NCBI RefSeq assembly: GCF_900188275.1
Contig: NZ_FZNY01000010.1
Coordinates: 1 to 64,000, forward strand
DNA: 64,000 nt
Direction: 5' to 3'
From: Dokdonia pacifica
Lineage (GTDB): Bacteria > Bacteroidota > Bacteroidia > Flavobacteriales > Flavobacteriaceae
Below are positions 4,665 to 34,173 of this stretch, piece after piece. The position numbers and the translations under genes were made by a program. Every line of letters starts with the position of its first letter. Position 1 is the first letter of the stretch. Below the pieces are notes generated by a model. The model was not told the DNA's origin, ran no database searches, and saw nothing but the letters and a program-made list of their open reading frames with translations.

Positions 4665-4738
4665 GCCGATGTAGCTCAGCTGGCTAGAGCAGCTGATTTG
4701 TAATCAGCAGGTCGTGGGTTCGAGTCCCTCCATCGGCT
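4665..4738 (+). tRNA. tRNA-Thr (anticodon TGT)
   Basis: 74 nt. Acceptor GCCGATG pairs with CATCGGC; D-arm GCTCAGCTGGCTAGAGC; anticodon stem GCTGA/TCAGC around loop TTTGTAA, giving TGT; T-arm with GGTTCGAGTCC. CCA is not encoded. The 3' part and the following terminator are repeated at 4845-4899. Confidence 0.95.
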
Positions 4739-31243: not shown

Positions 31244-31246
31244 ATA

Positions 31247-31281
31247 AAGTACAAAGTACAAGGTCAAAAATAAGAAATAGA
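31247..31281 (+). repeat. Heptad array, left arm of cassette 1
   Basis: Seven-nt periodic run: AAGTACA, AAGTACA, AGGTCAA, AAATAAG, AAATAGA. Its first 15 bases complement 31670-31684 with one mismatch. Confidence 0.75.
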
Positions 31282-31301
31282 AATATTTATAAATTATCAA
31301 A

Positions 31302-31652
31302 ATGCAGGATCTAAAGAAAAGAACTAAACAATTTGCATACGATTGTTGGAATTTTTGTGAAGGAATACCCAAATCTAGAGAATTTAACGCTTGGGTTAAT
31401 CAGTTAATTAGGTCGTCTAGTTCTGTTGGAGCAAACTATAGAGCTTCTCAGAGAGCTAAATCTACAGCAGATTTTATAAATAAACTTAAGATAGTAGAAG
31501 AAGAAACAGATGAAAGTATGTATTGGCTTGAACTTTTTAATATGGCATTACCATCTAAGAATGCACAAATAAAAAAATTACATACAGAAGCAAAAGAATT
31601 ATTAGCAATTACAGTTGCTTCTATAAAGACATCAAGAAAGAACAGCAAATAA
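31302..31652 (+). CDS. Four-helix-bundle protein (23S rRNA IVS-protein/Avd-like), cassette 1
   Basis: 116 residues, MQDLKKRTKQFAYDCW ... [16 protein letters not shown] ... KIVEEETDESMYWLEL, the S23/IVP four-helix-bundle family (PF05635/TIGR02436). Members are known in 23S rRNA intervening sequences, and the Avd accessory protein of diversity-generating retroelements has the same fold. Biochemical role of solitary copies is unknown; basic surface suggests nucleic-acid contact. It lies between hisB and hisH, framed by inverted heptad arrays, and is about 60% identical by eye to the second copy at 33780. Confidence 0.88.
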   Translation: MQDLKKRTKQFAYDCWNFCEGIPKSREFNAWVNQLIRSSSSVGANYRASQRAKSTADFINKLKIVEEETDESMYWLELFNMALPSKNAQIKKLHTEAKELLAITVASIKTSRKNSK

Positions 31653-31669
31653 GATGAAAGAAATAAATT

Positions 31670-31698
31670 TTGTACTTCGTACTTCTAACTTTGTATTT
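31670..31698 (-). repeat. Heptad array, right arm of cassette 1
   Basis: Read on the minus strand: AAATACA, AAGTTAG, AAGTACG, AAGTACA. Inverted relative to the left arm at 31247; ends 5 bp before hisH. Confidence 0.75.
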
Positions 31699-31703
31699 GA
31701 TAT

Positions 31704-32285
31704 ATGAAAATAGTAATCATAGATTATGGAGCTGGGAATATTCAGAGCATTAAGTTTGCTATAGAGCGCTTAGGGTTTACGGCAACTTTAAGTGATAATC
31801 CTGAAGAAATAAGAAATGCAGATAAGGTAATTTTCCCTGGCGTAGGCGAGGCGAGTAGTGCGATGCGTAAGCTTAAAGAAAGTGGTTTGGATAGTTTGAT
31901 TCCTGAATTACAACAACCCGTTTTGGGAATTTGTTTAGGCATGCAGCTTATGTGTAATTATTCAGAAGAAGGCGATACCGAAGGGTTAAAAATTTTTGAT
32001 GTAGATGTGGTACGCTTTCGCGAAAGCGTAAAAATCCCGCAAATCCAATGGAATAGTATTACGAGTCTTAAAGGACCGTTATTTGAAAATGTTGAAAACA
32101 ATGAATTTATATATATGGTGCATAGTTATTATGCGCCAGTGACAGATGAAACCATAGCTGTATGTGAATATGGGATTCCTTATGGAGCCGCTTTCGCGAA
32201 AGCGAACTTCTATGGAACACAATTTCATCCAGAAAAGAGTAGTAGTACGGGAGCACAGATTTTGAAGAATTTTCTTGAATTGTAA
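31704..32285 (+). CDS. hisH: Imidazole glycerol phosphate synthase, glutaminase subunit
   Basis: 193 residues, class I glutamine amidotransferase supplying ammonia to HisF. Catalytic Cys in LGICLGMQLMC, His/Glu in GTQFHPEKSS, and the N-terminal DYGAGNIQS. Two palindrome copies are in frame: 32011-32030 (FRES in VVRFRESVKIPQIQWN) and 32189-32204 (AFAKA in YGAAFAKANFYG). Both lie close to strands conserved in the family. Confidence 0.96.
   Translation: MKIVIIDYGAGNIQSIKFAIERLGFTATLSDNPEEIRNADKVIFPGVGEASSAMRKLKESGLDSLIPELQQPVLGICLGMQLMCNYSEEGDTEGLKIFDVDVVRFRESVKIPQIQWNSITSLKGPLFENVENNEFIYMVHSYYAPVTDETIAVCEYGIPYGAAFAKANFYGTQFHPEKSSSTGAQILKNFLEL
32011..32030. repeat. 20-bp palindrome TACGCTTTCGCGAAAGCGTA, first copy in hisH
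   Basis: Perfect copy, read as RFRESV. Confidence 0.92.
32189..32204. repeat. 16-bp palindrome CGCTTTCGCGAAAGCG, second copy in hisH
   Basis: Exact copy, read as AAFAKA; 160 bp from the first copy in the same gene but in another frame. Confidence 0.92.
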
Positions 32286-32290
32286 AATTC

Positions 32291-32318
32291 AAATACGAAA
32301 TTAGAAAAACGATTAGTA
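32291..32318 (+). repeat. Solo heptad tract between hisH and hisA
   Basis: AAATACG, AAATTAG, AAAAACG, ATTAGTA: the same 7-nt rhythm and similar words as the cassette-1 arms (AAATACA, AAGTTAG), but without a four-helix-bundle gene. Confidence 0.5.
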
Positions 32319-32350
32319 AATAGGTTACACTGCGTTAGCCATTAAAAAGA

Positions 32351-32368
32351 TACCCGCCTTTGCGGGCA
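32351..32368 (+). promoter_or_regulatory. GC-rich hairpin just before the hisA start
   Basis: CCCGC, CTTT loop, GCGGG ends 5-7 bp before the hisA ATG (32373), so it occupies the ribosome-binding position. No T run follows, which argues against a terminator. Confidence 0.5.
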
Positions 32369-32372
32369 TAAA

Positions 32373-33116
32373 ATGAGAATAATACCAGCCATAGATATCA
32401 TAGATGGAAAGTGTGTACGCCTTTCTAAAGGAGATTATGATACCAAAAAAATATATAATGAAAACCCGTTAGAAGTTGCAAAAAACTTTGAAGCACATGG
32501 GATTCAATACCTACATTTAGTTGATTTAGATGGGGCAAAAAGCAAACATATTGTAAATCATAAGATTTTAGAACAAATAGCTTCTAAAACAAGTTTACAG
32601 ATTGATTTTGGAGGTGGTTTAAAGACAGACCAAGATTTGCATATTGCTTTTGAAAGCGGGGCTTCTCAAATTACTGGTGGGAGTATTGCAGTTAAAAAAC
32701 CTGAAGTATTCATAAAATGGCTAAGAAAATATGGTGCCGATAAGATCATATTAGGAGCCGATGCTCATCATAGAAAAATTGCTATTTCTGGATGGTTAGA
32801 AGCATCTGATGATGATGTGGTAGAGTTTATAACCAATTATCAATTAGAAGGAGCTCAATATGTGATTTGTACAGATATTAGTAAAGACGGTATGTTAGAA
32901 GGGCCTAGCTTTGATCTATATAAAGAAATAATAACAGTTTCAGAGGGTATATCAAGTGGTTCTAATATTAAACTGATTGCCTCAGGAGGCATCTCAACAT
33001 TTGATGAATTACCCAAACTAGCTGAATTAGGTTGTGAAGGTACCATTATAGGGAAAGCTATTTATGAGAATCGTATAACTTTGAAACAATTAGAAACCTT
33101 TATCTTAAATCACTAA
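32373..33116 (+). CDS. hisA: Phosphoribosyl-formimino-AICAR phosphate isomerase
   Basis: 247-residue TIM-barrel isomerase (ProFAR to PRFAR). Phosphate loops and catalytic Asp are visible: [19 protein letters not shown] (N-terminal Asp), [35 protein letters not shown] (second Asp) and [18 protein letters not shown]. Starts behind a GC hairpin. Confidence 0.96.
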
Positions 33117-33118
33117 GC

Positions 33119-33628
33119 ATGGAAGCACATTGGGTGACAGATTTTAAAGAAAACACGCTTTATCGTATTGATGAGAGTACGCGTATGATTACTATTGCTT
33201 TTCAGAAAATTGAAGAGACACATGTATGGCAACGTCCTAATCAGTCGAGTAATAGTCTCGGAAATCAAATTTTACACCTATGTGGTAATATGACTCAGTA
33301 TGTCATTTCGAGTGTTGGAGAGCAAGAAGATACTCGTGATAGAGATGCAGAGTTTGATGCCGTAGAAGGATATTCCAAAGAAGCGCTTTTAGAAAAATTA
33401 GCAATTACGGTACAAGAAGTTAAGGATACAATCCAAAATGCGTCAGAAGAGCAATTGCTTAAAAAACGTTATGTACAAGGATTTCATTTTTCAGGAATGG
33501 GATGTGTGATTCATGCAGTAGAGCATTATAGCTATCATACAGGACAAATAGCTTTTTGGGTAAAAACTATACTCAATAGCCCATTAGGATTCTATGATGG
33601 ATTAGATTTGAATACCATGAATGAATAG
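33119..33628 (+). CDS. DinB family protein
   Basis: 169 residues, four-helix DinB/DUF1572-like fold. Candidate metal His residues: H54 region (NQILHLCGNMTQY) and the HAVEHYSYHTGQIAFW block (about 138-152). Family members are metal-binding, some thiol-dependent transferases; this one has no known substrate. It starts 2 bp after hisA and is followed by the second heptad array, so it is co-transcribed with the his genes. Confidence 0.85.
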   Translation: MEAHWVTDFKENTLYRIDESTRMITIAFQKIEETHVWQRPNQSSNSLGNQILHLCGNMTQYVISSVGEQEDTRDRDAEFDAVEGYSKEALLEKLAITVQEVKDTIQNASEEQLLKKRYVQGFHFSGMGCVIHAVEHYSYHTGQIAFWVKTILNSPLGFYDGLDLNTMNE

Positions 33629-33633
33629 ATGTA

Positions 33634-33759
33634 GAATATAGAACGACGAATGACGAATGATGAATAATGAATAATGAAAAACGAATGACGAATGATGAAT
33701 AATGAAAAACGAATGACGAATGACGAATAATGAAAAACGAACAACGAATAAAGAACAAT
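33634..33759 (+). repeat. Heptad array, left arm of cassette 2 (18 units)
   Basis: Eighteen consecutive 7-mers all beginning GAA (GAATATA, GAACGAC, GAATGAC, GAATGAT, GAATAAT, GAAAAAC and so on), with a 28-bp higher-order unit at 33681-33708 and 33709-33736. No interruption of the 7-nt phase across 126 bp. Confidence 0.92.
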
Positions 33760-33779
33760 CAACTTAAAAATTGATGCAT

Positions 33780-34130
33780 ATGCGTGATTTGAAAAAGAGA
33801 ACAAAGAAATTCACGATTGATTGCTGGGAGCTTTGTAAACAGTTTCCAAAATCTAGAGAATTTGATGCCTTTATTCGTCAATTAATAAGATCCTCTAGTT
33901 CAGTGGGTGCTAATTATAGAGCAGCAAATAGAGCAAAGTCAGATCGTGATTTTATACATAAAATGAAGATTGTAGAGGAAGAAGCAGATGAAAGTATGTT
34001 CTGGTTAGAAGTACTTAAAGAAGTGTCAGATGTAAATCCAGAAGAAATAACAAGGCTTATTTCTGAGGCAAATGAATTATTAGCAATTACTGTATCGTCA
34101 ATTAAAACCGTTAGAAAAAGAATTAATTAA
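33780..34130 (+). CDS. Four-helix-bundle protein (23S rRNA IVS-protein/Avd-like), cassette 2
   Basis: 116 residues from ATG 33780 ([16 protein letters not shown]), aligned to the start of the first copy; an in-frame ATG lies two codons upstream at 33774. The core, [21 protein letters not shown] ... [16 protein letters not shown], is the family hallmark. It lies between the DinB-family gene and hisF, with heptad arrays on both sides. Same family and orientation as 31302-31652 but clearly diverged, so not a recent local duplication. Confidence 0.88.
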
Positions 34131-34139
34131 TTATAATTT

Positions 34140-34173
34140 GATGTTCGTCGTTCGTCGTTCATTATTTGTACTT
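34140..34173 (-). repeat. Heptad array, right arm of cassette 2
   Basis: On the minus strand GAACGAC, GAACGAC, GAACATC (34140-34160), inverted relative to the left arm; the word TGTACTT (34167-34173) is the same heptad used in cassette 1. Ends 6 bp before the hisF ATG. Confidence 0.75.

Follow-up and report, generated by a model that had tools for sequence, protein, structure and literature searches.

The closest described relatives of the elements reported here are the S23-coding intervening sequences (IVSs) of 23S rRNA. A published IVS contains an S23 open reading frame (ORF), and its termini pair in a 28-bp stem; tandem GACAGAT heptamers, variable in number, lie 5' of the S23 start, and RNase III cuts at the onset of the first heptamer repeat (PMC4990558). 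That paper calls its S23p ORF expendable; its introduction describes the distribution of IVSs as sporadic and gives the published S23 structure as a homopentamer, a toroid. S23 proteins are listed there as having no known function, and the accessible part of the text describes heptamers for a single rRNA IVS, without generalization (PMC4990558). Tandem heptamers have also been reported from Xanthomonas (GGGAATC; 70 and 75 convergent pairs in two strains) and Nostoc (GGGGA(C/T)T) (PMC4692102), and TAACTGA heptamers from Beggiatoaceae, cyanobacteria and Bacteroidetes (PMC4679880). Here we describe two S23 genes in the his operon of Dokdonia pacifica, each framed by inverted arrays of 7-nt words (together, a cassette), and compare them with S23 loci across Bacteria. 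The DNA analyzed (the window) is a 64 kb stretch, NZ_FZNY01000010.1 positions 1 to 64,000, on contig 20 of a 5.5 Mb genome; its phylum was taken as Bacteroidota. Genomes are labeled G (the window's genome is G000) and loci L.

Both genes exceed the profile cut-offs of PF05635 (S23a 53.4 and S23b 66.3 bits; cut-off 33.8) and TIGR02436 (78 and 86.3 bits; cut-off 24), which bears out their initial annotation as S23/four-helix-bundle proteins. PF05635 was the sole Pfam match of either at E 0.01, and S23b has a PDB relative with five chains (2rld, E 9.5e-14). The two genes had been placed between his cistrons on one strand. They do share the + strand with their neighbors; S23a lies between hisB and hisH, and S23b between a DUF1572/DinB-type gene (33119-33628) and hisF; the his names, like all others except S23 and the DinB-type gene, were assigned by eye. 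The left arm of cassette 2 does consist of GAA-headed heptads in 18 of 18 units, compared with a maximum run of 3 in 200 shuffles of 10 kb, and positions 34140-34160, read in reverse, give the described words GAACGAC GAACGAC GAACATC. The 15-nt pairing with one mismatch claimed for the arms of cassette 1 is present by eye (AAGTACAAAGTACAA versus AAGTACGAAGTACAA). When the left flank was aligned to the reverse complement of the right flank, cassette 1 scored 17 (equalled in 1/1000 shuffles) and cassette 2 scored 18 (0/1000), and for both the own partner arm ranked first of 31 loci. In that ranking both window cassettes were on the plus strand, and minus-strand comparison loci entered unflipped. 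The best alignment of left arm 1 spans 31254-31290, and Tandem Repeats Finder (TRF) assigned it period 7 at 31246-31261; TRF returned five period-7 rows in the window, three of them within cassette arms. G000 carries eight S23 genes in all, and arms are visible by eye at every one of the eight, with different words at each (8-nt words at L007).

In the window's phylum, 75 of 99 sampled genomes carry S23/PF05635 genes, as do 16 of the 18 genomes of the genus sample. The phylum-level set comprised 146 loci (66 from searches directly, 80 fetched from further matches) with 161 S23 ORFs, of which 152 remained after removal of duplicates, fragments and short flanks. Each left flank was scored against the right flank of its own gene and against those of other genes. 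Mean scores were 17.2 for own pairs, 9.5 for cross pairs and 9.5 for dinucleotide shuffles, and a score of at least 16 was reached by 86 of the 152 own pairs compared with 1.5% of cross pairs. Control ORFs from the same loci (192) had a mean of 10.0, with 2.6% at 16 or above. Flank autocorrelation of the 152 genes peaked at lags 7, 14 and 21, left and right alike. The heptad flanks that the initial annotation proposed to look for at other PF05635/TIGR02436 loci are therefore strongly enriched relative to cross pairs and control ORFs.

The same anatomy was found well outside the phylum. A wider set was drawn from the best 80 of at least 581 relatives in genome_contigs, of which 79 were analyzed (L231 was left out). 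Own pairs averaged 21.4 and cross pairs 9.5; 54 of 79 own pairs scored at least 16, compared with 4.0% of cross pairs, and the own partner was top-ranked in 35 of 79 rows. Against mononucleotide shuffles, z exceeded 3 in 64 of the 79 genes, from about a dozen phyla, and in 44 of the 53 without Bacteroidota-like labels. By label, the counts were Bacteroidota 17/23, Proteobacteria 10/13, Acidobacteriota 8/9, Clostridia 6/7, Chloroflexota 5/5, Planctomycetota 5/5, Cyanobacteria 3/3 and others 10/14. None of these best 80 loci had a large-subunit rRNA match at the Rfam gathering score. The observation is confirmed, and S23 with mirrored arrays is a design general across Bacteria. One of two archaeal loci, L200, also has S23 with inverted words, in a Methanophagales metagenome-assembled genome in which contig misassignment is possible.

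Table 1. Features of the two S23 cassettes and of a possible remnant array in the his operon of the window.
Feature	Position (strand)	Content	Context and basis
Left arm and spacer, cassette 1	31244..31301 (+)	words AAAGTAC, AAAGTAC, AAGGTCA ...	starts directly 3' of hisB stop codon
S23a	31302..31652 (+)	116 aa, S23/four-helix-bundle protein	PF05635, TIGR02436
Right arm, cassette 1	31663..31698 (+)	inverted words TGTACTT, CGTACTT, CTAACTT, TGTATTT (by eye)	ends directly 5' of hisH start; arm alignment
Possible S23-less remnant array	32290..32320 (+)	TACGAAATTAGAAAAACGATTAG	hisH-hisA spacer; by eye
Left arm, cassette 2	33634..33759 (+)	18 GAA-headed heptads, higher-order 28-nt repeat	
S23b	33780..34130 (+)	116 aa, S23/four-helix-bundle protein	longest ORF from TTG at 33771
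Right arm, cassette 2	34133..34166 (+)	inverted words GTTCGTC, GTTCGTC, GTTCATT	TRF, arm alignment

Each unit has, on the left, an array of 7-nt words (8-nt words in a minority), then the S23 gene and, on the right, the same word class inverted. Periods were scanned in 247 unique genes (both sets plus 30 further loci, duplicates removed). Period 7 was assigned to 163 left flanks and 139 right flanks, and period 8 to 28 left and 27 right flanks; each of periods 5, 6 and 9-12 was assigned to at most 9. Both flanks were periodic in 133 genes, with 116 pairs 7/7, 15 pairs 8/8, and two mixed (7 left, 8 right). L007 and L025 belong to the minority of S23 cassettes with 8-nt words, usually in both arms. 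The words differ from locus to locus. On the sense strand, left arms are rich in G (G/(G+C) 0.755, aligned arms of 106 genes).

In the window's phylum, most cassettes are in sense orientation relative to codirectional neighbors, and their arms reach almost to the stop codon upstream and the start codon downstream. S23 genes share the strand of both neighbors in 113 of 143 cases; among control ORFs the figure is 112 of 192 (p 6e-5). Arm positions were measured in the 71 cassettes that have codirectional neighbors, gaps of at most 160 nt and an arm score of at least 14. The left arm overlaps the upstream stop codon by a median of 1 nt, and the right arm stops short of the next start (longest-ORF start used) by a median of 7 nt; the cassette thus fills the spacer. 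Besides his, cassettes were seen by eye inside suf, groES-groEL and fad operons, with L009 and L011 (two congeners) carrying one between groES-like and groEL-like genes. Insulation of stop codons by the left arm was considered and rejected, as stops only slightly exceeded the column-permuted null, and at least equally on the other strand. Seeding of the words from the target site was not supported; resemblance to the array phase is found mainly at the base that adjoins the stop codon (0.58 vs 0.33, 54 loci), with weaker excesses at -8 and -10.

Presence or absence of cassettes varies between congeners, and the empty sites proposed as a check on mobility exist at hisB-hisH. By coordinates, hisB and hisH are separated by a 3-nt gap in 7 of 14 congeneric hisA loci, and the junction is TAATG in all five empty loci whose letters were inspected. 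Searches with S23a and S23b by tblastn found neither in 29 loci of other genera in the family, taken from among 51 genomes that have a hisA match; despite this negative, a degenerate S23-like reading was seen by eye in the hisH-hisA spacer of L170. In G009 the S23a position is occupied by an orthologue (81-82% amino acid identity). Its proportion of synonymous differences (pS) from the window's gene is 0.66 and equals the hisA value (0.67), in agreement with vertical descent, and the words have drifted in both arms (GAGGTAC in G009, AAAGTAC in the window). G015 lacks S23a and carries S23b at the same site, 95% identical and with one in-frame TAG; DNA identity to the window is 94% for S23b and 86-88% for its neighbors. 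At the dinB-hisF junction of G012 and G013, heptad words without S23 were seen by eye. In most cases compared, divergence of the cassette is about that of its neighbors, as if vertically inherited.

A fadJ/fadI-type site carries S23 in seven genomes. Own scores there were 12, 21, 23, 23, 10, 15 and 22 (mean 18), compared with a cross mean of 9.5 and a cross maximum of 23, the latter in a near-identical pair. Six of the seven S23 proteins form one supported clade together with L036; L012 (G002) is outside it. L012 and L036 are two S23 cassettes about 1.7 kb apart on contig 34 of G002, and the position of L012 outside the clade of its congeners' fadJ/fadI-site genes, with its neighbor L036 inside, may reflect replacement or a local move.

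Coding constraint on S23 was compared with that on the host operon. Ratios of nonsynonymous to synonymous divergence (dN/dS) were 0.07-0.12 in 7 of 10 S23 pairs and 0.26 in one, and two pairs were saturated; S23a of G009 and the window gave 0.09. Operon genes of the same genomes gave 0.08-0.09 (hisA) and 0.04 (hisF). S23 is mostly under purifying selection. The initial annotation suggested that the cassettes are possibly kept harmless in the operon, which is too weak: the dN/dS of those 7 pairs is like that of hisA in the same genomes.

S23-less arrays of related words, single or with an inverted counterpart, also lie near S23 genes. In a census of 80 loci, mostly 8 kb, 47 period-7 arrays lay within 160 nt of S23 (64.6 kb) and 35 elsewhere (about 585 kb), an enrichment of ~12-fold per bp. 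At a lower threshold, 46 arrays were more than 200 nt from S23; 18 of them match the local S23 arms better than they match those of 95% of other loci. An inverted partner is present for 19 (a figure without a control). The remnant-like array in the hisH-hisA spacer of the window resembles GTAGAAAAACGAA words that, by eye, flank an S23 gene in G002 and an S23 fragment in G014 at the same junction. In two of the three cyanobacteria examined, arrays with related words are spread over many genomic sites. A word from the arms of one S23 gene of G175 had 550 matches genome-wide in G175 itself (six S23 genes) and 84 in G176 (seven S23 genes), counted as overlapping matches and not as separate arrays; the reversed control gave 0. 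Five S23-free genomes had 2 period-7 intergenic arrays in 800 kb, both from a congener of the window's genome, compared with 21 in 800 kb of five S23-bearing genomes.

The likeness to the 23S rRNA IVS that had been suggested for this locus is strengthened by the published element, which combines an S23-type ORF, complementary termini and heptamers (PMC4990558). Stem-capable termini are present here too, with a predicted RNA fold that is clear in cassette 2 and weak in cassette 1. Unlike that IVS, the window cassettes lie in spacers between protein genes and carry a word array on either side of S23. At the gathering score, Rfam has a single match in the window, a tRNA (4665-4738), and both cassettes are between cistrons of the his operon, not in an rRNA gene. 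Also unlike the IVS, whose S23p is called expendable (PMC4990558), S23 here is mostly constrained. As in the system of REP-associated tyrosine transposases and their repeat doublets (RAYT/REPIN; REP, repetitive extragenic palindrome), one protein gene is flanked by short repeats that are also dispersed alone and as inverted pairs, several gene and repeat flavors coexist in a genome, and the gene tree is largely congruent with the species, so far as the accessible text of PMC3116915 describes that system. Flanking and dispersed repeats of this type were seen for the S23 class as a whole. Unlike RAYT, S23 is not a Y1/HUH transposase, and its repeats are tandem 7/8-nt words whereas REPs are palindromes. 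The heptamers of Xanthomonas, Nostoc and other bacteria are similar in being tandem 7-nt words, mostly intergenic (PMC4692102; PMC4679880, as far as accessible).

PF05635 resembles Avd of diversity-generating retroelements (PMC10053308, accessible text). Unlike those retroelements, the window's genome has no match to reverse transcriptase PF00078 at E 0.001, which argues against an obligatory reverse transcriptase partner of that family; such a partner was rejected, with no PF00078 in 9 of the 16 S23-bearing genomes of the genus. PADLOC and PHROGs gave no more than weak matches (E 0.017 and above). In open PMC text, which mostly does not cover subscription papers and preprints, no paper was found to link inverted word arrays with S23 genes outside rRNA; PMC4990558 was the one paper found to combine S23 with heptamers.

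On balance we lean toward the view that S23 heptad cassettes are IVS-type elements outside rRNA with a RAYT/REPIN-like organization, in which S23 recognizes and spreads word arrays. They would be the same element type as the S23-coding IVSs of 23S rRNA. The cassette is probably transcribed with its host operon, and in that transcript the arms could, by predicted folds, form a stem around the S23 gene. A toroidal, homopentameric S23 may recognize the word array as a hairpin or as a single strand, and it is the putative factor that keeps and spreads arrays in cis (the cassette) and in trans (S23-less arrays). The IVS-like part is partly supported, by anatomy and by gain and loss and not by mechanism. 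More tentatively, and short of what we would call probable, S23 with inverted 7/8-nt arrays could be an undescribed, bacteria-wide, transposase-free mobile repeat system. Its toroid would make, copy or maintain the words of its locus in cis and seed S23-less arrays in trans; it would be the common source of orphan heptamers in cyanobacteria, xanthomonads and Bacteroidetes, with the 23S rRNA IVSs as its rRNA branch. There is a real chance of a repeat system in its own right.

Several results weigh against a mobile, S23-driven element. To our knowledge S23 has no catalytic domain. Neither transposition nor excision was observed, nor a target-site duplication; at hisB-hisH, inspection by eye of occupied and empty sites, in diverged species, gave no clear duplication. 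The arm match fell below z 3 in 15 of 79 wider-set genes and exceeded it in just 4 of the 8 S23 genes of G000 (range z 2.0-8.4). Among codirectional gene pairs, S23 is in sense orientation (113:11) not more often than other ORFs are (112:20, p 0.13). Mirror order of variant words is weak, 20.1 compared with 19.0 in block shuffles (p 7e-4), and is individually present at 12 of 104 loci; this is the unbiased version of the test, as versions with a segment picked by its match inflated the effect. Arms evolve apart over a short time scale: in the comparison with G015, identity to the window is 98% for the right arm and 81% for the left, the latter with 46 gapped positions. Among eight syntenic groups, the contrast between own and cross pairs was clear in A and B, slight in D, F and S23a, and absent in C, E and S23b, although the S23b row is unreliable because the G015 copy is cut at its in-frame stop. 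The tested cyanobacterial word had 0 matches in G177, which has three S23 genes; that genome is uninformative for this word because its S23 arms carry other words. In the comparison of S23-bearing with S23-free genomes, 12 of the 21 arrays came from one genome, the samples are small, and kinship and GC are confounded with S23 (4 of 5 S23-free genomes have GC 0.46-0.64).

In a pure mRNA intervening sequence the arms would matter in RNA alone; RNase III would cut the stem that they form, S23 would leave on the excised piece, and the cistrons on either side would remain functional. Its precedent is the 23S rRNA IVS with S23, a 28-bp stem and heptamers cut by RNase III, as far as the accessible text of PMC4990558 goes. 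RNA duplexes are stronger between own arms than across genes (-30.2 vs -19.3 kcal/mol; 152 genes, each tried with four cross partners), and in predicted folds the arms of cassette 2 pair and enclose the gene, in the minimum-energy as well as the centroid structure (z -2.58). Cassette 1 does not follow, with partial pairing in the predicted minimum-energy fold and none in the centroid (z -0.35). The 113 of 143 S23 genes on the strand of both neighbors agree with such an element; the other 30 are off the strand of one or both. Long-standing RNA stems usually favor G-U pairs, and in the arm pairs G-U mismatches do not significantly outnumber A-C mismatches (168 vs 148, p 0.29). Duplex energy likewise gives no advantage to the sense strand, the antisense strand being equally strong (p 0.35, 152 genes). 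Selection for an RNA stem is therefore unsupported by these tests, the arms may act in RNA, DNA or both, and we consider the mRNA explanation unlikely. TRAP binds spaced triplets, and by analogy S23 could be a domesticated autoregulator, a toroid that would bind AG/TNAG words at 7-nt spacing within its own leader, with the right arm as anti-array and the operon tuned. A weak common core T-N-A-G above the column-permuted null (2.18 vs 1.75-1.79, 133 left arrays), a median left array of 34.5 nt or about five heptads (120 loci with both arrays), and purifying selection on S23 agree with this idea, as do the five chains of 2rld and the homopentamer given in the introduction of PMC4990558. It is quite improbable in our assessment, as S23 relatives at one site have different words, array length varies widely (10-90% range 26-71 nt), and arrays exist without S23.

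Heptamer microsatellites could also arise in intergenic DNA by passive slippage, with S23 merely located there. The left arm of cassette 2 does contain 28-nt slippage units, and heptamer arrays of Xanthomonas, Nostoc and others were published in papers whose accessible text mentions neither S23 nor IVS, 23S, helix bundles or intervening sequences (PMC4692102; PMC4679880). Slippage is already disfavored, and we give it very little credence, because it explains neither the inverse arm match and the 7/8 concordance nor the dominance of period 7 and the enrichment of arrays beside S23. Many words are A/T-rich, as a chance or low-complexity artefact would have it, but cross pairs, dinucleotide shuffles and control ORFs all remain at the background score, which refutes this explanation and leaves it a negligible probability.

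Other repeats were noted in and around the his operon. The palindrome CTTTCGCGAAAG has 12 copies in the window, compared with 0.01 expected from shuffles, and its copies at 32015-32026 and 32191-32202 fall within the hisH ORF. A GC-rich hairpin, CCCGCCTTTGCGGG (32353-32366), lies directly 5' of the hisA start codon, and similar sequences are found at his junctions in L148, L157 and L158. These three loci (from G015, G013 and G012, respectively) have, by eye, another inverted-repeat insert of about 139-153 nt at the hisB-hisH junction (CCCTAGCCCCCAAAGGGGG ... CCCCCTTTGGGGGCTAGGGGG in L157), the right end of which is apparently read as the hisH start.

S23 (PF05635) proteins are common and have no known function according to the accessible text of PMC4990558, and heptamer repeats have been reported again and again with no cause given. 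A simple anatomy, with words specific to the locus and a period common to both arms, ties S23 genes and heptamer arrays together in many phyla. The purpose of S23 and the origin of heptamer arrays become open to direct experiment. As the cassettes lie inside housekeeping operons, they also bear on the tolerance of operons to insertions, and the mirrored-array S23 design points to an overlooked type of mobile or regulatory element.

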